Source: a virus
Direction: 5' to 3' (one strand)
DNA: 31,991 nt
Virus record (IMG/VR): IMGVR_UViG_3300025684_000043
Coordinates: 1-31,991 of that record
Below are positions 4,185 through 20,672 of the stretch, piece by piece (positions within the stretch are counted from its first letter, which is position 1; the number at the start of each line of letters is the position of its first letter). Under the pieces are notes generated by a model. It searched no databases, was not told the origin of the DNA, and saw only the letters and a list, made by a program, of their open reading frames with translations. The position numbers and the translations under genes were made by a program.

Positions 4185-5966
4185 ATGGCTAACAATGTAG
4201 AGAAGCGATTCTTGCCTGGCAGCTTTGAGGTTCGCACTGACGAGGGTAAGCCCACCGTAGTGGAGGGTTATGCCGCCGTCTTCAATGACGAGACTGTCAT
4301 TGGCGGATCTTTTGCTGAACGCATCGATCGCGGCGCCTTCGATGGCGCAGACATGTCCAACACCGTAGCGTTGTTCAATCACGACATCAACAAGCCCCTT
4401 TCCCGTGCAGGTCACGGACTGGAGCTCACCGTTGACGAGCGTGGCTTGAAGTACCGCTTCGAGGTAGGCAACCAAAGCTACGCCCAAGATCTGGTAGAGA
4501 ACATCCGTATGGGTAACGTCTCGACCAGCAGCTTCGGCTTTACTATCAAAGATGACGAGTGGGAGATGCGTGACGGTGGTATGAACCTCCGCACCATCAA
4601 AGAGGTGGATCTGCTCTTCGACGTGTCACCCACTACGCAGGGTGCGTACCCCACCACCGAGGTGGGCTTGCGTTCTATGGAGCTGGCTATGGCCAACGCC
4701 GAAGTCACCGAGATCGAAGAGGAAGAGGTGCGATCTGAAGAGGTGGTAGAAGAAGAGGTAGTAGCAGAAGTTGAGGAGGCAGACGAAGAAGACTGCGGCT
4801 GTGAGGATAACGAGGTTAAGCCCGTGCCACGCAGCGAAGAAGTAACGCTCGAAACGGCGGACGCCCCCGTCGCCGAAGAGAGTGATAAAATTATTGAACG
4901 GGGCGCAGAATCTGAAATCTCTATGAACGAAGAGAAAAACGCACCCGCAGTGGTGCAAGGATTGGGCGACAAAGTCCAAAACGTCCGCGCCCGTTTTGAT
5001 TTGGGCAAAGCTATCCGTGAAGCGGCTACCGGTAGCTTGTCAGGACTCGAAGCCGAGATGAACTCCGAAGCTGTCAACGAGTTCCGTCAAGCTGGTATCA
5101 GCGTGGCTAACGGTATCAACATCCCTGCTATGATGTTGCGTGACGCTGTGCCTATGGCTACGGAAACCGTGGCTACCGTATCGGCTGCTGTCAACCAAGG
5201 CGTCCAGACCGACATCGGAGGCCCTATCGCTAACTACCGTCCTGTGACGTTTGCTGACAAGATGGGTGTACGCAAGCTCACGGGCTTGACGGGCGATGTG
5301 TCTATCCCTGTTCAGTCTCAGAACGTGACGGCGGCTAAAACTACGAACGAAGCCGACCCTGTTGACTCTACCAACATCGCTCTGTCTTCTGTGTCTCTGT
5401 CTCCAGAGCGCTTGTCTGCTCACACGAAGGTGTCGCAGCAGTTGCTCGCTCAGAACAGCTTCGACTTGCAAGCGTTCTTGGCTGACGACATCCGTCGCGG
5501 CTTGGAGTTGGCATACAACACGGAGTTGAAGGGTATCATCGAAGGTATCACCGAGACCGACGGTACTGGCGTTGACCCAGCCGATGTGCCTTACTTGTTG
5601 GAGGAGGCTTTGCGTGATGCCGGTGTGGACTACGAAGGAGCATACTTCTTGATGGAAGCCGGTGCCTTTAAGACCCTCCGTCGCGCTACCCTCGATGCAG
5701 GTTCAGGATTGATGGCCGCTCCCGATCGCAACAACGTGATTGGCTACCCCGCGCTCGTGAGCTCTTTGTTCACGGACGACAACGTATACATGGTTCAGCC
5801 TGCTGACCTCGTGTGCGCTGAGTGGGGCGGTATCAACATCATGGTTGATCCTTACACGGAGGCCCACAAAGACGTGGTTCGCATCGTGGCCAACATGTAC
5901 ATGGACTGCGCAATCTTGCGCACAGCTGGCGTGAAGGGCTACAGCAACTTGGGTGCTACTGCCTAA
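4185..5966 (+). CDS. Prohead protease-major capsid protein fusion (HK97-like)
   Basis: One 593-aa polyprotein carries the maturation protease and the major capsid protein. Residues 1-165 are a U35/S78-type prohead protease: VEGYAAVFND (26-35), catalytic His66 in FNHD, catalytic Ser near 116 in STSSFGF, and EVDLLFDVS (140-148). Residues about 172-245 form a Glu-rich, low-complexity linker with a DCGC motif (203-206), probably a scaffold-like delta region. Residues 270-593 are the HK97 capsid fold, with IGGPIANYRPVTFADKMG (344-361), VSIPVQ, the E-loop-side segment and a C-terminal A-domain. An internal Met at 247 (nt 4923) could start a capsid-only product. A terminator follows directly. The ATG is preceded by an A-rich leader (gaaaat). 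Confidence 0.93.
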   Translation: MANNVEKRFLPGSFEVRTDEGKPTVVEGYAAVFNDETVIGGSFAERIDRGAFDGADMSNTVALFNHDINKPLSRAGHGLELTVDERGLKYRFEVGNQSYAQDLVENIRMGNVSTSSFGFTIKDDEWEMRDGGMNLRTIKEVDLLFDVSPTTQGAYPTTEVGLRSMELAMANAEVTEIEEEEVRSEEVVEEEVVAEVEEADEEDCGCEDNEVKPVPRSEEVTLETADAPVAEESDKIIERGAESEISMNEEKNAPAVVQGLGDKVQNVRARFDLGKAIREAATGSLSGLEAEMNSEAVNEFRQAGISVANGINIPAMMLRDAVPMATETVATVSAAVNQGVQTDIGGPIANYRPVTFADKMGVRKLTGLTGDVSIPVQSQNVTAAKTTNEADPVDSTNIALSSVSLSPERLSAHTKVSQQLLAQNSFDLQAFLADDIRRGLELAYNTELKGIIEGITETDGTGVDPADVPYLLEEALRDAGVDYEGAYFLMEAGAFKTLRRATLDAGSGLMAAPDRNNVIGYPALVSSLFTDDNVYMVQPADLVCAEWGGINIMVDPYTEAHKDVVRIVANMYMDCAILRTAGVKGYSNLGATA

Positions 5967-6664: not shown

Positions 6665-7020
6665 TGAGAGCGGGGGAACTCAACGAGAAGATCGACATCA
6701 AGCGCGTCACGCGTAGCGTCAACGACTACGGTGACGTCATCGATGCCGCTACCACCTGGAAGGAGGGTATCCGCTGTCGGGTTATGCACCTGGGCACACC
6801 CTCTGCTGGGGCTAGCGAGTTCAGTGACGATGATCAGACGGTGGCCGAGATGAAGGCTGAGTTCCGTTGCCGCTATATCAGCGGCCTTCGCTTTGACGAC
6901 ATCGTCGTTTGGAACGGTGCCGAGTTCGATATCTATTCCATCATCCCCATTGGGAGGCGCGAGGGCATGAATGTCCGTGGCCGCTTCCGCGACAATGAGG
7001 GAACAGTACCTACCACCTGA
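6664..7020 (+). CDS. Head closure / head-tail adaptor protein (SPP1 gp16-like)
   Basis: A 118-aa protein of the phage head-tail joining family, which forms the stopper ring closing the filled head. Family landmarks are the start MRAGELNEKIDIKRVTRSVN, a Gly-Asp turn and TTWKEGIRCRV, the AEMKAEFRCRYISGL strand, and the closing WNGAEFDIYSIIPIGRREG segment. Length and order (connector, adaptor, gp10-like) match HK97-type neck clusters. It is TGATG-coupled at both ends. Confidence 0.87.
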   Translation: MRAGELNEKIDIKRVTRSVNDYGDVIDAATTWKEGIRCRVMHLGTPSAGASEFSDDDQTVAEMKAEFRCRYISGLRFDDIVVWNGAEFDIYSIIPIGRREGMNVRGRFRDNEGTVPTT

Positions 7021-7499
7021 TGCCGACATTCGTAGGAAAGGGAGGTAGCTTCCGCGTACAGATGGAGATCGAAGGTATCGACAGGAACGATGTGTTCCCT
7101 CGTGCTGTCCGCAGGATGAAGAAGATTAAGGACCGTAAGAAGTACCTGAACCGTATCATCCGCAGATCTTTGGAGCCTATGCGTAGGGATATGTCGAGCC
7201 TGGCACCTGTCGATACAGGGGCCTTGCGCGAGTCGTTCCGCATCCGCTCTATCAGCAAGACGCCACCCAATGTATGGGCTTGGCGCGTAGGTGGAGTGAG
7301 CGGCGAAGGCGTAGGCGTAGGTGGCTTGTCGTATTCTCTGGCTGGGTGGCGCGACCACTGGGCGGAACTGGGTACGGTGAACCACGAACCTACACCGCAC
7401 ATCGCGCCAGCCATCAGCCAAAACGTGGCTGAGGTGAGAAAGAATATAGACTACGAAATCTTACGTTTTCTAGACGACCTGCTTTACGGGAATCTGTAA
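7020..7499 (+). CDS. HK97 gp10-like neck protein
   Basis: A 159-aa member of the HK97 gp10 family, a tail-completion or neck component. The signature APVDTGALRESFRIRS (residues 62-77) is the family core, and WAELGTVNHEPTPHIAPAIS (about 120-139) matches the conserved E-GT, P and PA positions before the last helix. The N-terminus is basic (RAVRRMKKIKDRKKYLNRIIRR). It is TGATG-coupled to the adaptor gene and followed by the tail tube genes after 29 nt. Confidence 0.87.
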   Translation: MPTFVGKGGSFRVQMEIEGIDRNDVFPRAVRRMKKIKDRKKYLNRIIRRSLEPMRRDMSSLAPVDTGALRESFRIRSISKTPPNVWAWRVGGVSGEGVGVGGLSYSLAGWRDHWAELGTVNHEPTPHIAPAISQNVAEVRKNIDYEILRFLDDLLYGNL

Positions 7500-7528
7500 G
7501 TGGGCGTACAAACCCCTTAAAAAAAACC

Positions 7529-8161
7529 ATGGCACTACTTAATGCAAACTATATGGGGCTTTACGCCCTGTCTAAAGGATCGACAGATCCATTCACTATT
7601 GGCGTAGGAGCTACATCTTCTGCCGCCATTTCCGATGCTTGGACTAAGAACGGTTCTACCACTGGCGACGCCATCTTGGTTGACTCTATTGATGACGTGT
7701 ACAAAATTTCTGGCCAACCAGCTATTGCCAGTGTGACTAGCTCTTCCGCAGCATCTCCACAAGCCTTGAGCCTTTTGGCCGCAGCTACGAGCACGTCTCT
7801 CGACTTGAGCAATACGGTCAATGAAGTCGTGGCTCGTGACGGCTCGTGCGGAAGCGAGACATTTATCGTTTCGGGAGCGCAGAGCTGGACCCTGTCTGCT
7901 GATGGTCTTATCCAAACTGGCGGTGTCGCTGGCTATGGAGCTATGAACTTGATGGACTACGCCCGTGCTGGCGAGTACGTCTTCGTGCGCTTCGTACTCA
8001 ACAACGCGGCTATGGATGATGCCACCGACAATGACGAGAACGTAAGCTACCTCGGTCAGGCGTTGATCGAAAGCGTCAGCCTCTCCGGCGGCTTCGATGA
8101 GACATCTACTTACAGCGTGAGCTTGAGCGGATACGGAAAGCTTTACAAATACCAAGCATAA
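7529..8161 (+). CDS. Major tail tube protein, copy 1
   Basis: A 210-aa protein in the tail tube position. It is beta-rich and Ser/Thr-rich with no membrane segment. The C-terminal half (about 95-210) aligns along its length with the next gene: both have SLDLSNTV/TIDFSNTV, ARDGS, SW T.S.DGL, SYLGQALIESVS/SYVGQALIDNVS and a closing TYSVSLSG...LYK. These features fit TP901-1-type tube proteins, but the call rests mainly on order and abundance-type signals: a strong A-rich leader (taaaaaaaaccatgg) and a terminator after the pair. The N-terminal 90 residues are more divergent. Confidence 0.78.
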   Translation: MALLNANYMGLYALSKGSTDPFTIGVGATSSAAISDAWTKNGSTTGDAILVDSIDDVYKISGQPAIASVTSSSAASPQALSLLAAATSTSLDLSNTVNEVVARDGSCGSETFIVSGAQSWTLSADGLIQTGGVAGYGAMNLMDYARAGEYVFVRFVLNNAAMDDATDNDENVSYLGQALIESVSLSGGFDETSTYSVSLSGYGKLYKYQA

Positions 8162-8170
8162 CATAACACC

Positions 8171-8719
8171 ATGTCAGTACTTAACGCAAACTGCCTCGCT
8201 ATCTACTTTCATGGTAGCGGGAGCGAAAACAAATACACGGTCCTTAACGACTACGATAGTATCGATACTGCTGAAGTTGGCGTCACCGCCGATGTCTCAG
8301 ACAACCTTATCGTTGCCACCAACAATTCCACGTTCCTAGGCTTCGGGTCTATCGTGGCTGCAACAGACACGTTTACTGAGACTGCACTCACCCTGGCCGC
8401 AGCAGCTACTACTAGCACCATCGACTTCAGCAACACCGTTGAAGACGTAGCTCGCGACGGATCGGGAGGCACGCTCCAGCAGAGCGACAACTCCTGGACG
8501 GTCTCGTGCGACGGCCTCGTGAAGGCTACCAACGATACGGGCGAGGACTTCCTCGACTTGGCTCGCGACGGCAAGTACGTCATCGTGAAGTTCGATGTCG
8601 ACGACCTCTCATACGTGGGTCAGGCTCTGATCGATAACGTGAGCATCACGGGTAACGTAGACGAGATTGCTACATACTCTGTGAGCTTGACGGGTATCGA
8701 CGAGCTGTACAAAGCATAA
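8171..8719 (+). CDS. Tail tube protein, copy 2 (paralogue)
   Basis: A 182-aa paralogue of the preceding protein. It begins with the same M..LNAN pattern (MSVLNANCLA against MALLNANYMG) and ends with the same GQALID.VS...DE.ATYSVSLTG..ELYK block. It is about 28 residues shorter, mostly lost near residues 80-140 where copy 1 has extra loops. Only 9 nt separate the two genes, so they are co-transcribed. One copy may build the tube and the other may be a minor, terminator or decorated tube protein; the sequence does not say which. A terminator follows. Confidence 0.78.
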   Translation: MSVLNANCLAIYFHGSGSENKYTVLNDYDSIDTAEVGVTADVSDNLIVATNNSTFLGFGSIVAATDTFTETALTLAAAATTSTIDFSNTVEDVARDGSGGTLQQSDNSWTVSCDGLVKATNDTGEDFLDLARDGKYVIVKFDVDDLSYVGQALIDNVSITGNVDEIATYSVSLTGIDELYKA

Positions 8720-8773: not shown

Positions 8774-9112
8774 ATGAACAACACTCTGCGAGGGGAGTTC
8801 TCCTTCAGCATCGGAAAGAAGAAGTACGATGCGTCTCTGACACTCAACGCTCTGCGTATTATGTGTCAAGCCCACAACCGTAAGATCGACGAGATCGACA
8901 AGTGGATGTCCGACGACCCTCTTACTGCCGTATGTGCCTTCTGCTACTTCGGCGTTAAGAACGATGGGCTCCGCAAGGGCAAGGACCCTAAGCTCCCCGA
9001 CTTTGAGACTTTCTGTGCTCAGGCCCTCGACGAAGAGGAGACTATTTCTGCTATGATGGATGCGGTGACGCAAGCCATCGGCGGAGCTGAGGACGTGAAG
9101 TCGGGAAACTAA
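8774..9112 (+). CDS. Tail assembly chaperone, short form (lambda gpG-like)
   Basis: A 112-aa protein directly upstream of the tape measure, where siphophages encode the chaperones that coat the tape measure before tube assembly. It has a short beta start (LRGEFSFSIGKKKYDASLTL), a helical middle and an acidic helical end (EEETISAMMDAVTQAIGG). Sequence similarity to gpG is not obvious by eye. The call rests on position, length and the frameshift: the stop TAA at 9110 follows immediately after a slippery heptamer, so a fraction of ribosomes would continue into the -1 frame. Confidence 0.8.
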   Translation: MNNTLRGEFSFSIGKKKYDASLTLNALRIMCQAHNRKIDEIDKWMSDDPLTAVCAFCYFGVKNDGLRKGKDPKLPDFETFCAQALDEEETISAMMDAVTQAIGGAEDVKSGN

Positions 9113-9432
9113 CGCATTCCCAGGGAGATTCCAAGGAGGAGTTGACCTGGGATTCTATGTACAAGGCTGGTTTTGAGATGGGGCTGACACCCGATCAGTT
9201 CTGGAACATAACCATGCGCGAGTATTCATACATGAGGGAGGCTTACATGTCCAACCTCAGCGCACGATGGGATCACACCGCATCGATCATGTCGCTGATA
9301 GCTAATGTAAACTCCGTCAAGGGTAAGAAATTTGAGCCGAAGGACTTCCATCCCTTCGAGCGAATGAACAGTCAGGGGGTGTCCTCTACTCAAGAGGCTA
9401 TGGAGCTCCTGGAGAAACTAAAACATTTCTGA
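8774..9432 (+). CDS. Tail assembly chaperone, long frameshifted form (lambda gpGT-like)
   Basis: Programmed -1 slippage at GGGAAAC (9103-9109) fuses the 112-aa upstream part to the -1 frame, which is open from 9091 to the TGA at 9430-9432, giving about 219 aa. The extension starts LTHSQGDSKEELTWDSMYKA and continues MGLTPDQFWNITMREYSYM, which resembles T-domain chaperone segments (helix with W/Y residues) that contact the tail tube. A free-standing gene from TTG 9142 is less likely: no AUG-type start exists there, the frame is open upstream exactly to the slippery site, and the stop overlaps the tape measure ATG (TGATG). Treat as join(8774..9109,9109..9432). Confidence 0.82.
9103..9152 (+). 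other. Programmed -1 ribosomal frameshift signal
   Basis: The heptamer G GGA AAC (9103-9109) is in the correct phase for a tandem slip and is followed at once by the zero-frame stop TAA. Eight nt downstream, tcccagg (9118-9124) and cctggga (9146-9152) form a perfect 7-bp stem with a 21-nt loop, at the usual distance for a stimulatory structure. The loop contains aaggagga (9133-9140), which looks like a Shine-Dalgarno sequence. Heptamers of the GGGAAAx type drive the G-T frameshift in lambda. Confidence 0.85.
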
Positions 9433-17651: not shown

Positions 17652-17800
17652 CATTCACAAGCCAAGCCCTTCAGACCCTGACGTCTGATGCCGAGACGGA
17701 CATCACCGATCACAACTTCCTCATTCCAGTCTTGCAGGAGGTAGACACCATCCTCGCGGATCTGGAAGCACGAGTAGCAGCCCTCGAAGCACGACGCTAA
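17648..17800 (+). CDS. 50-aa coiled-coil protein
   Basis: A short gene starting at ATG 17648 inside an ATGA overlap with the previous stop and ending in a TAATG overlap with the protease gene. The product is 50 aa: a polar N-terminus (MTFTSQALQTLTSDAETDIT) and a C-terminal heptad-like helix (VLQEVDTILADLEARVAALE) ending in ARR. Coupling on both sides is the main evidence that it is real. Function is unknown; it could be a fibre attachment or trimerisation peptide, or a translational spacer before the secreted proteins. Confidence 0.7.
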   Translation: MTFTSQALQTLTSDAETDITDHNFLIPVLQEVDTILADLEARVAALEARR

Positions 17801-19701
17801 TGAAACAACTTTTCCTCCTCTCTCTCTTCACTCTTTTCTTTAACGCAATCACAGCTCAAGAGGAATGCTCCATCCTCTTTGAGCCTAAATTCATGGGGCT
17901 TGAGGCGAATCGAGTAGAGGTGGATTTGAACGATGTGGATACGGTGACTATTCCCATCGTATTTCATATTGTACATACTGGTGCTGGGGCGGAGAACAAC
18001 ATCTCCGACGAGCAGGTCATGTCGCAGGTCGACGTCTTGAACGACGAGTTTCGTGATAGCAAGATCCAGTTCTGCATGGCTTCTCGCGATCAGGACAATA
18101 ACCCCACCAATGGCATCACTCGCACCGACTACAGCTGGAACAAGTCTTACCTTGCTGATGGAATTAGCAATGGCTCAGGCAGCGGAGCCGATCAGACACA
18201 AGTCAAGAGTGACGCCGGGTGCTGGAACCCGTCTGAGTACATCAACTACTATGTTGTCAGCGAGATTAACGGCAACGACGGTGGCTGGGGCATTCAGGGC
18301 TTCGCTTACCTAGGGCCTACGGGTGACTGCCGCGACGGTGTTGTGTGTTTGTATAATGTGACGGGGAATGTGGGAACGCTCAAGCCTGGAAGAGAGCTTG
18401 GTTTTACAGGCGTTCATGAGATGGGCCACCACCTTACGCTCTGGCATACCTTCTCCAATTCGAACGACTGCGTAGAAACCAACTGCGAGACGCAGGGAGA
18501 TCAAGTATGCGACACACCACCGACCCTTCCTAACGATCAGGGATGTGTTGCCGTTGACTGTCCTGATGCTTTGATCGAGAACTTCATGGACTATACGCCG
18601 GAGACGTGCCGTGAGAGTTTTACTGTGGGTCAGGCTGAGCGTATGCACGAGTGCTTGCAGGGATCTCGAAGTGGGCTTCTCGACAACCTATCTTGTGTCC
18701 CCGTTGTGGACTACGACGCCACCCCGCTGACAGCCTACTACCAGCAGACGTGGTGCACACCTACTCAAGACATTTGGATCGACGTGGTAAATCAGGGTAC
18801 GCTCCCTTTGGACGTCATCGAGGTGCAGCTCTACGTCAATGGAAACCAATACGTCGAGTACTTATATGACGTTCCTACTGGCACCCACGAGGTTATGTTT
18901 GAGGGAGTATATGTTGATGGAGCCCAGATGTTCGAGGTGCAGGTGGTCAGCGAACTTGACCAGTTCCAAGACAACGACTACGCTTGGTGGACTATTGAGA
19001 CCGTATCCGGCGAGGTCATGGACATTGTAGTGGGCACAGACAACTGGGCTAACGAGGTTGACTGGGTGCTTTACGATGAGTTTGGGGAGGTCGTGATTGG
19101 GGATGGTGGCTATCCTCTGGGAGAGGCCACCTACGAGTACGAGGTCTGCGTGTACGAGGGGTGCTACACCTTCGAGGCTACCGACACCAACGGCGACGGT
19201 ATGTGCGCTTTTGATTTTGGCAACGACGGGATCTGCGACTTTGGGGGTGAGGGAATCACGGCCACCGTCGGGGGCAACGTCATCTTCGCTACGGAGCAAA
19301 CGGAGTATTCTCTTTTCGACACGACCTTCTGCTTCTCTATTGGGGATTGCCCTCTCGACTTCGATGGTAATGGTGCTGTAGGCAATGGCGACATCCTTGA
19401 GATGATGCTTGAGTACGGGTGTGAATCTGGTTGCCAGACGGACCCCAACAACGATGGCATCGTGAACGTCATGGACCTGCTCTATATGCTTACCAACCTC
19501 GGGGATTGTCCACTGGAGCAGGACTTCAGCACGGGGACGCTCAAGGACCTCACGGTGCAAGCGGCCAGCCGTGACTACGGCGGAAAGCCTCGCATCTACG
19601 ATATGTCCGGGCGCCGAGTGCGTGGCGACATCGATCAGCTCGCGACAGGTGTCTACATCCTGAAGTGGGGAACTGTAACCAAAAAAGTCTTTGTGCAATG
19701 A
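17800..19701 (+). CDS. Secreted M43 (pappalysin-like) metalloprotease with T9SS sorting domain
   Basis: A 633-aa predicted extracellular zinc protease. A signal peptide spans residues 1-19 (MKQLFLLSLFTLFFNAITA). The M43 domain (about 48-295) starts with IPIVFHIVHTG and has the zinc motif HEMGHHLTLWH (206-216) and the Met-turn FMDYT (262-266) followed by FTVGQAERM. The usual Gly of HExxHxxGxxH is Thr213. An Ig/CARDB-like domain (305-400) and a Cys-containing domain with GCYTFEATDTNGDGMCAFD (454-472) follow. Two dockerin-like segments (DFDGNGAVGNGD at 520-531, DPNNDGIVNVMD at 548-559) precede a type A T9SS C-terminal domain (about 582-633: YDMSGRRVRGD, GVYILKW, KKVFVQ). Export would be Sec then T9SS of the host. 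TAATG upstream and ATGA downstream place it in the late operon. The target is unknown. Confidence 0.9.
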   Translation: MKQLFLLSLFTLFFNAITAQEECSILFEPKFMGLEANRVEVDLNDVDTVTIPIVFHIVHTGAGAENNISDEQVMSQVDVLNDEFRDSKIQFCMASRDQDNNPTNGITRTDYSWNKSYLADGISNGSGSGADQTQVKSDAGCWNPSEYINYYVVSEINGNDGGWGIQGFAYLGPTGDCRDGVVCLYNVTGNVGTLKPGRELGFTGVHEMGHHLTLWHTFSNSNDCVETNCETQGDQVCDTPPTLPNDQGCVAVDCPDALIENFMDYTPETCRESFTVGQAERMHECLQGSRSGLLDNLSCVPVVDYDATPLTAYYQQTWCTPTQDIWIDVVNQGTLPLDVIEVQLYVNGNQYVEYLYDVPTGTHEVMFEGVYVDGAQMFEVQVVSELDQFQDNDYAWWTIETVSGEVMDIVVGTDNWANEVDWVLYDEFGEVVIGDGGYPLGEATYEYEVCVYEGCYTFEATDTNGDGMCAFDFGNDGICDFGGEGITATVGGNVIFATEQTEYSLFDTTFCFSIGDCPLDFDGNGAVGNGDILEMMLEYGCESGCQTDPNNDGIVNVMDLLYMLTNLGDCPLEQDFSTGTLKDLTVQAASRDYGGKPRIYDMSGRRVRGDIDQLATGVYILKWGTVTKKVFVQ

Positions 19702-20672
19702 AGAGGCTGCTTTGGTTCCTGATTCCTATCCTGTCCTATGGGCAATGCGACATCGAGATCGTAGGGTTCAACCCTATCTCGACGGATATGACCATCACGG
19801 TCCTCGGTGGGGCGTGCATGACTGAGAACGACAGCGTAGGCGAGTTCCTGCTGGGCCTTACCTTCCAGCCACCTATAGAAAACCCACAGGAAACCTGGCC
19901 GTGCTTCTATCCTGACGGGTGGGCGTATCTCATCTTCCCTCTCAACTTCCCCGGCTTCGACATCGGTGAAGGCGACGACCAGATTCTCCAGACGGGGGAC
20001 ACGGTGACGTTCAACCTCCTCGAAACTCCGTGGGCGGGGTCGGGGACGGCCAACTGCTGGATCGAGATCTTTCAGGACGCAGCCTATTTTGAAGAGTGCG
20101 TCGTGACGGCTGTCACCCAAGTCAACGACAATCAGGAGTTCGGAGACGACAACCTCTTCAACAGCTGGATTACGTGGAGCCTCAACGGAGCGTGTGACCC
20201 ACCTCCTCCGCCTGTCGTGATAGGCTGTACCGACATGTTCGCATACAACTACAACGTAGAAGCCACGGAAGATGATGGCTCGTGTGTGTACCAGGGCTGC
20301 GTAGACCCAGCCGCCATCAACTACTGCGAGGAATGTACTATTGTAGGGCCGTGCGAATACTACCCGGAAGCGGGAGAGAACTGCAACGACCCACTTATCT
20401 TCTGCCCAAACACCTTTACCCCTAACAACGACGGAAGCAACGACTACTGGAAGCCCGTCACGACATCGGCGTGCTGGTGGAAGTGGGAGTGCCGCGTCTA
20501 CAACAGGTGGGGTACACTTGTGTGGATCAGCTACGATCCGGACGACAAATGGCTAGGCAACAGGCTTGCCGCCTTCGTCCCGGACGGTGTGTATGTGTGG
20601 ACCATCAAGGCCACAACCTTTCAATCAACAAAAGCCGTTGAGATCAACGGAACAGTAACAGTATTCAGATGA
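19698..20672 (+). CDS. Secreted GCTD-repeat protein with CHU_C / gliding-motility C-terminal domain
   Basis: A 324-aa predicted surface or secreted protein. ATG 19698 overlaps the protease stop (ATGA) and begins a signal peptide, MKRLLWFLIPILSYG, with likely cleavage before QC; an upstream in-frame ATG at 19665 would bury it. Residues 17-165 are a Cys-containing beta domain. At 177-222 sit GCTD-type modules (GCTDMFAYNYNVEATEDDGS and GCVDPAAINYCEEC), common in marine flavobacterial exoproteins. Residues 234-324 match the CHU_C/gliding-motility C-terminal domain: NTFTPNNDGSNDYWKP, VYNRWGTLVW, VPDGVYVWTIKA, TVTVFR. This domain directs T9SS export (type B). A lipobox is absent. It may act with the protease, anchor at the cell surface or bind virions; which is unknown. 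Confidence 0.88.
   Translation: MKRLLWFLIPILSYGQCDIEIVGFNPISTDMTITVLGGACMTENDSVGEFLLGLTFQPPIENPQETWPCFYPDGWAYLIFPLNFPGFDIGEGDDQILQTGDTVTFNLLETPWAGSGTANCWIEIFQDAAYFEECVVTAVTQVNDNQEFGDDNLFNSWITWSLNGACDPPPPPVVIGCTDMFAYNYNVEATEDDGSCVYQGCVDPAAINYCEECTIVGPCEYYPEAGENCNDPLIFCPNTFTPNNDGSNDYWKPVTTSACWWKWECRVYNRWGTLVWISYDPDDKWLGNRLAAFVPDGVYVWTIKATTFQSTKAVEINGTVTVFR

Follow-up and report, generated by a model that had tools for sequence, protein, structure and literature searches.

Two adjacent and diverged genes for tail tube proteins, called A and B here, are kept side by side in a set of uncultured phages, and each has lost a motif that the other has retained. The best explanation, to which we give a probability of roughly one half, would be that one long tail tube is built from A and B as two subunits that depend on each other. 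Purifying selection on both genes, the absence of a consistently minor copy and the complementary loss together favour this reading. Known tail tubes, as described in the portions of the literature consulted, consist of a single repeating subunit or of fused or lengthened forms of it, and paired tail genes have been noted elsewhere. What is new to us is a series of one, two and three copies combined with complementary loss; the open-licence literature searched, in the portions consulted, contained no description of tail tube copies with complementary loss, or of such a series.

Two tandem genes of a tail tube family

By the window we mean the whole stretch of viral DNA that was analysed, 31,991 bases long. 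The sequence-only reading of it had pointed to adjacent, related tail tube genes with a common start M..LNAN, and both ORFs are as it described. The proteins begin with MALLNAN (A) and MSVLNAN (B) and end with TYSVSLSGYGKLYKYQA (A) and TYSVSLTGIDELYKA (B). Nine nucleotides lie between the stop of A, a TAA, and the start of B, which has its own ATG. BLASTP aligns residues 1-207 of A with 1-181 of B (73/207 identical, 35%; 85.5 bits, E 9e-26), and the Smith-Waterman score of the pair is 268, compared with a mean of 42.1 (SD 7.8, maximum 77) for 1000 shuffles of B. The likeness is therefore far above chance and extends over nearly the whole length. The C-terminal half had been singled out as collinear; the similarity there is real, and it is not limited to that half. 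The difference of about 28 residues noted at the same time is also real: it amounts to 28 residues, distributed over seven gaps, the largest of 12 residues (A156-167). A search of the window with A found A and B as its only tube copies.

Both proteins score above the cut-off of 23.8 bits for Phage_tail_2, the family of TP901-1-type tail tube proteins (PF06199), A with 32.6 bits (E 9.5e-8) and B with 31.6 bits (E 1.9e-7), and both match phrog_1407, major tail protein (E 1.8e-12 for A, 4.3e-16 for B). AF2 models built from ten-sequence alignments reach moderate confidence (A pLDDT 66.6, pTM 0.66; B pLDDT 71.7, pTM 0.70). The best Foldseek match of both is the monocin tail tube (E 1.7e-4 for A, 7.1e-4 for B), at TM-scores of only 0.33-0.45, and other tubes come next. 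VIA, a second aligner, gives the tubes of 80alpha, GTA, monocin, SPP1 and lambda at Z 7.6-10, and 9j1j_B at Z 9.4 (A) and 9.3 (B); its top row for B is a tied one, the hypothetical S. aureus protein 4qxz. Among PDB sequences, a profile search again finds the monocin tube (E 6.6e-5 with A, 0.0012 with B). Differing predicted folds had been named beforehand as a point against a common role; the models of A and B both match tail tube proteins.

By family and predicted fold, then, A and B are tail tube proteins. They share family, predicted fold and gene position with the PF06199 / phrog_1407 tail proteins, with monocin MttP (8qhs) and with the GTA tube (6tba, 6toa). A single copy of the tube gene is usual in phages of the PF06199 type, whereas the phage group of the window has two or three diverged tandem copies per genome.

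A fusion of A and B by readthrough or frameshifting was considered and rejected: one TAA separates them in the window, and no conserved fusion signal was seen among the copy-to-copy junctions of the relatives. Of the 47 junctions listed, 33 are in frame (6 of them with two in-frame stops) and 14 are out of frame. The in-frame share, 33/47, lies above one third in contigs that are related to each other; window 8159-8170 is an example.

Table 1. Positions in the window of A, B, their motifs and the neighbouring genes
Feature	Position	Strand	Remarks
Ne1, tail completion / neck protein (HK97-gp10-like)	7020..7499	+	directly upstream of A; PF04883 E 3.8e-4; phrog_5 E 2.2e-12
ORF A, tail tube protein paralogue 1	7529..8161	+	210 aa
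A long loop, residues 99-120, full ancestral length	7823..7888	+	aligned with single-copy relatives; model residues 94-117 of low confidence
A last-hairpin turn GGFDETSTY	8087..8113	+	ancestral VD[ED]IATY lost; alignment
A C-terminal motif GYGKLYK	8129..8149	+	ancestral form kept; alignment
ORF B, tail tube protein paralogue 2	8171..8719	+	182 aa
B long loop, residues 92-109, shorter by 1+3 residues	8444..8497	+	columns 155 and 166 gapped in 29/29 B rows; three-residue gap in the rows shown
B last-hairpin turn GNVDEIATY	8651..8677	+	ancestral form kept; alignment
B C-terminal motif GIDELYK	8693..8713	+	ancestral GxG.LYK lost; alignment
112-aa protein	8774..9112	+	directly downstream of B; orthologue also downstream of tube genes in relatives
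Likely tail assembly chaperone	9142..9432	+	PF06223 E 5e-5 and PF09550 E 2.1e-4, both just under curated cut-offs
Tape measure protein, 1066 aa	9432..12632	+	PF10145 PhageMin_Tail E 2.1e-20

Gene neighbourhood

The gene order is fused protease-capsid, Ad1, Hc1, Ne1, A, B, the 112-aa protein, a likely chaperone and the tape measure protein. A and B lie between the neck genes (Ad1, Hc1, Ne1) and the tape measure gene, as expected for PF06199 tube genes. The 112-aa protein is probably a tail assembly chaperone, judging from its position; it has no Pfam match, and its four PHROG matches, phrog_2115 'tail protein' among them, stand at E 0.07-0.2. The product of the following gene is likely a tail assembly chaperone as well.

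One suggestion made from the sequence was that a copy has become a specialised terminator, taking over the role of the protein that ends the tail, such as lambda gpU or SPP1 gp17. A directly follows Ne1 (window 7020-7529), with no recognised terminator gene between them, and no terminator family was matched among the scanned ORFs of the window. The fold of terminators is also described, in the text consulted, as related to the tube domain (PMC11784142). However, Ne1 adjoins the tube gene in 45 of the 46 single-copy contigs in which Ne1 was found, and the flanking proteins scanned in two contigs (L045 and L082) gave no terminator match. Since single-copy relatives likewise pass from Ne1 to the tube gene without such a match, the second copy does not track the loss of a terminator. 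A and B themselves match each other and tube families, and no terminator family in profile searches at E up to 1, and the fold matches listed for them include no terminator either; the phages with three copies would require yet another role. The suggestion did not find support, and we consider it very improbable.

Between Ne1 and the tube gene of contig L103 there is a 189-aa ORF (1058-1627) with clusters of cysteine and histidine, presumably resembling an inserted HNH/NinG-type gene. Unassigned extra sequence has enlarged the head closure gene of L045 (1844-3331) to 495 aa and the head-tail adaptor of L009 (1810-2877) and L082 (3158-4195) to 345-355 aa. In the window, prohead protease (S78) and capsid domains are fused in one ORF of 593 aa (4185-5966). 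Such a fusion is also present in Damascus and Count, cultured phages with several tube genes; this may be a coincidence. A protein with a peptidase M43 domain (window 17800-19701; PF05572, E 2.2e-16) is encoded downstream of the tape measure gene. The product of window 19665-20672 has a type IX secretion signal domain, CHU_C (PF13585, E 2.9e-14), which points to Bacteroidota as the likely host phylum.

Copy number in relatives and history of the duplication

Relatives were sought in IMG/VR with alignments of A, of B, of single-copy proteins and of middle copies. The scans gave 99 contigs, which with the window make 100 viral contigs; the first 63 contigs held only 50 distinct ones. The raw census of the 100, in which one scan contributed the best 80 of 86, counts 49 contigs with a single copy, 37 with two, 14 with three and none with more, and both flanking genes were recognised in 44/49, 30/37 and 13/14 of these, respectively. 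Two of the raw singles (L059, L090) are copies cut at contig ends that score higher with the B profile, and three others (L051, L121, L141) have one flank missing. Among the raw doubles, L081 is a cut triple, and L111 and L089 go back to separate duplications, which gave copies other than A and B. The corrected census has 34 A/B doubles, the window included, and 15 triples; five of the doubles have one copy cut, the first in L053, L055 and L068 and the second in L003 and L023. In A/B doubles and triples, the A profile gives the best score for the first copy, and the B profile for the last. The tube duplications in L111 (4998-6241) and L089 (4389-5576) are independent ones, with ancestral turn and C-terminal motifs in both copies.

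Outside IMG/VR, there was no tblastn match to A or B at E 0.01 in 50,697 records of isolated phages, and phage records resembling the protease-capsid and portal of the window are distant only. Two scans of prokaryote genome contigs, one with the B alignment and one with the single-copy alignment, confirmed no relative.

In a maximum likelihood tree of 95 rows, made without copies under 150 aa, the first and middle copies form an A clade (47 rows, support 100/97) and the last copies a B clade (37 rows, support 100/99), with stems of 0.69 and 0.66; the single-copy proteins belong to neither. In a larger quick tree, to which more single-copy rows were added, A again stays together (23 rows, support 88), as does B (18 rows, support 97). 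Since A and B form separate clades in many contigs, a recent or artefactual duplication is ruled out. In a quick tree of six other genes from 53 contigs, 27 of 28 doubles fall in one clade and 13 of 13 triples in another; the remaining double, L017, stands apart with four singles near it, and seven singles together with L089 are on the far side. The simplest reading of these trees would be one old, kept duplication that gave A and B, followed by a later duplication of A that gave the triples.

The old duplication may be older still. When A and B were forced into one clade against nine outside rows (8 single-copy proteins and the second copy of L089), the AU test disfavoured this arrangement, with p 0.0276. 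The duplication may therefore predate the single-copy group S1, which would then have lost A. This group comprises L082, L084, L086, L091 and, by the larger quick tree, L093; the evidence for its loss of A is modest and involves long branches. Near-duplicates and cut rows were left out of the sets used for the AU test, the ancestral columns and the motifs, and some long branches were also left out of the AU and motif sets.

Complementary loss of ancestral motifs

Three features mark the single-copy proteins: the last hairpin has VD[ED]IATY at its turn, GxG.LYK stands close to the C-terminus, and the long loop has its full length. A has lost the turn motif and kept the C-terminal one, and B has done the opposite (Table 1); the loss is complementary. 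Counts of the diagnostic residues refer to distinct sequences, with rows missed by the pattern read by eye from printed ends. All three of V, I and G are kept in 39 of 40 single-copy sequences, the fortieth being cut. In A, the V position is occupied by F in 34/36 sequences and I is lost in 35/36, with G kept in 36/36; the middle copies have F and G in 10/10. B keeps V in 33/33 and I in 31 of 32 readable sequences, and its G position holds D in 30 of 32 readable sequences, with one N and one G. The positions of the loop that are gapped in B rows (29/29) hold residues in most A and in the single-copy proteins.

In the independent duplications of L089 and L111, V and G are kept in all four copies. 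The split therefore belongs to the A/B pair and not to every duplication. One contig, L044, breaks the rule for B with GVG, and its A alone has FE instead of FD; this would fit co-change of the two proteins, as an anecdote.

No mutual exclusion is claimed for the proteins as a whole. The 71 inferred ancestral columns divide into 36 retained by both copies, 12 by A only, 10 by B only and 13 by neither; retention in A and in B is positively associated, so that shared constraint dominates. Sharp switches, in which a column is kept at >=0.75 in one copy and at <=0.05 in the other, number about nine, five of them A-only and four B-only. Charge complementarity between A and B was also considered and rejected: all copies are acidic, A from -8 to -23 and B from -12 to -21.

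Selection, codon usage and co-variation

We calculated dN/dS for 18 hand-chosen contig pairs. Where dS exceeds 0.3, nine pairs give ratios of 0.08-0.16 for A and ten pairs give 0.12-0.29 for B. Pairs that are very close give noisy ratios, as high as 0.86, and one of the B pairs is saturated. Both genes are under purifying selection and both are maintained. Twelve double-copy pairs have changes in both genes, and in 9 of them dN is higher in B, meaning that B is somewhat freer and that the copies are not wholly symmetric.

These values bear on the suggestion of a decorated variant, that is, a duplicate diversified to alter the tail surface or to escape host sensing of tube proteins. A does have longer internal insertions than B, and the DSR2 defence binds a tail tube protein, as the title of PDB entry 8zc9 has it. 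But neither protein has an added domain or a match to an FN3/Ig domain in Pfam and PHROG searches, and their length difference is scattered over the alignment. Low dN/dS is not what diversifying selection leaves, and the pairs and their gene order have been kept. This idea, too, went without support and seems highly improbable to us.

The share of C in NNY codons served as a rough proxy for expression, over unthinned rows in which L089 and L081 were labelled A and B by position. The shares are nearly the same, 0.705 for A and 0.715 for B (n=49, p=0.68). In the 43 contigs compared with the tape measure gene they are 0.701 and 0.719, with 0.572 for the tape measure, and in a set of 25 they are 0.686 and 0.698, slightly over the connector genes (0.66) and well under the capsid (0.807). 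The middle copy of triples, at 0.632, is below B at 0.701 (n=14, p=0.005). The p-values are optimistic, because the rows are related and partly redundant. A has the higher share in some lineages and B in others, and by codon usage there is no consistently minor copy.

This matters for the possibility that one copy forms a specialised ring of low abundance, such as a tail-tip initiator, a neck ring or a receptor-contacting variant, and that the other is the major tube protein. T4 gp48 and gp54 share the tube fold. Their hexameric rings are described, in the text consulted, as the hub for tube polymerisation (PMC8718954), and the authors of the work on phage G leave a comparable option open for its two tube candidates in the part of their paper seen (PMC8570332). 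One copy has a clearly higher NNY share in some lineages, and the freer evolution of B would also suit a special role. The codon bias is nevertheless not consistently lower in either copy, A and B have retained similar numbers of ancestral columns, and their stems are alike in length. A specialised ring is in our opinion distinctly improbable.

Distances between contigs also suggest an evolutionary link between A and B. Among contigs that have all seven genes, L017 excepted, the partial distance correlation of A and B is 0.57 in 18 doubles, the highest of 21 gene pairs; with triples added (27 contigs) it is 0.49 and second of 21, behind that of the 112-aa protein with the tape measure protein. 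These rows are related and partly redundant. The correlation lends weak support, because adjacent genes can share a history through recombination.

A possible mixed tube

Of the three readings offered from the sequence alone, the tube made of two subunits has fared best: the copies are old, conserved and complementary. How such a tube might have arisen can be suggested as follows. A single tube gene, which still occurs alone in relatives, would have been duplicated, and A and B would then each have lost a different part of the ancestral contact surface. If this is correct, neither A nor B should build a tube well alone. In the model of A the last two strands comprise residues 172-186 and 193-208, with the turn at one extremity of the long final hairpin and the C-terminal end at the other. 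Supposing that the motifs make contacts between subunits, the C-terminus of A paired with the turn of B would be the preserved ancestral contact, and the C-terminus of B against the turn of A would be a new, co-diverged one. Going by these sequence patterns, the arrangement would most likely be an alternating one, with A and B taking turns around each ring (A3B3 being the simplest case) or along the axis. In phages with triple copies the tube would contain three subunit types. Both A-type copies of the triples carry A-type motifs, and simple A-B alternation must therefore be extended for them.

The main rival is a segmented tube. Homohexameric rings of A and homohexameric rings of B would be stacked in separate parts of the tail, for instance in the body as opposed to the head-proximal or tip-proximal part. 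The tape measure is longer in the multi-copy groups, as if each copy had added a length of tube, and rings stacked in a fixed order would also be consistent with complementary loss at axial faces. Among tape measure ORFs taken from stop to stop in contigs with an uncut 3' end, the sizes are 1056-1098 aa in 15 A/B doubles, 1022-1384 aa in 12 triples, 816-833 aa in 3 S1 singles and 599-988 aa in 26 singles of S2. The lengths are 1090 and 1104 aa in two contigs whose tube genes are cut. Overall the length rises with tube copy number, from about 870 to 1070 and 1270 aa, with exceptions: 786 aa in the double L017, and 937 and 968 aa in L111 and L089, the independent doubles. These exceptions speak against the segmented tube. 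In addition, doubles (27/28) and triples (13/13) each belong to one clade, and so the trend may simply be inherited. A sharp border between segments needs only one layer of A-B contact, which poorly explains complementary change in nearly all A and B. We regard the segmented tube as unlikely.

A stronger form of the two-subunit reading can be put forward tentatively. The tube would be an obligate hetero-oligomer of two (in one clade three) alternating paralogues, each without a different half of the ancestral contact surface. If this is true, phages alive today with one, two or three copies represent a natural series of stages by which a ring machine acquires components, and the paired tail genes of unrelated tube families would point to a repeated origin. 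It would also be a phage counterpart of the fungal V-ATPase ring, with interdependence acquired by complementary loss. Since single-, double- and triple-copy relatives share the same gene order, the transition from a homomeric to a heteromeric ring is directly testable here.

Relation to known systems

The fungal case concerns an unrelated protein and machine. There, according to the text consulted, a subunit of the V-ATPase c-ring was made essential by reciprocal loss of complementary interfaces between paralogues (PMC7982386), and ancestral reconstruction was used. Closer in fold is the type VI secretion system of Bacteroides fragilis, in which, going by PDB titles (9vne, 9vnd), two paralogous tube-fold proteins, Hcp2 and Hcp3, share one ring. 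The structural match to the Hcp2-Hcp3 heterohexamer 9vne has Z 8.7 for A and 8.4 for B, and heterohexameric Hcp assemblies of Bacteroides are mentioned in a 2026 paper (PMC13323088). This system, from Bacteroidota, the likely host phylum for the window, is a T6SS tube and not a phage tail, whereas the hetero-ring of A and B is proposed from genes.

Other tails are known to contain two forms of tube domain. T5 pb6 is described as a fused pair of tube domains that is trimeric and makes pseudo-hexameric rings (PMC5717097); it is one chain, whereas A and B are separate genes. The tail of SPP1 is reported to consist of gp17.1 and a frameshifted form extended by FN3, in a ratio of 3:1, the extended form being dispensable (PMC8718954). 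SPP1 thus has two tube forms per tail, from one gene with a frameshift, whereas B is a complete tube domain with a start of its own and without an FN3/Ig match. Phage G, a contractile giant phage unlike the group of the window, has in common with it two tube candidates at the position of the tube gene, gp179 and gp180 (242 and 189 residues), whose roles its authors, in the part of the paper seen, call unclear (PMC8570332).

Several candidates for further paired genes did not stand up in the excerpts consulted. JBD30 has two neighbouring copies of one protein instead; T5 and 80alpha have two domains in one chain; PMBT5 occurs as a mention in a reference; and 'tail tube A and B' belongs to a podophage type or T7-like context. 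Two major tail proteins are also reported for Staphylococcus sepunaviruses, with no relation between the two stated.

Actinobacteriophages offer the nearest parallels, in that related tail genes are likewise kept. All 56 Gordonia phages of cluster DJ are reported to have two related major tail protein genes, with 43% identity and differing lengths in FortCran (PMC12859696); one gene lies between them, whereas A and B are directly adjacent. The Microbacterium phage Damascus (cluster EL) has two major tail proteins and a fused capsid-protease, a combination said to be common to several clusters in the text consulted (PMC11080557). From the cluster EL phages listed in that paper, as far as seen, we chose Count. 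Its record (L164 6016-8948) has three annotated major tail proteins, all of phrog_2645, as opposed to phrog_1407 for A and B; the two that were compared are 47% identical. A fused capsid-protease is present, and another gene lies between the first two tail proteins. The three proteins have no Pfam match, and BLASTP found no similarity between Count gp24 and B. The triplet of Count shows that tail tube genes have multiplied in at least one other tube family. Count is a cultured phage and a ready test system for mixed tail tubes.
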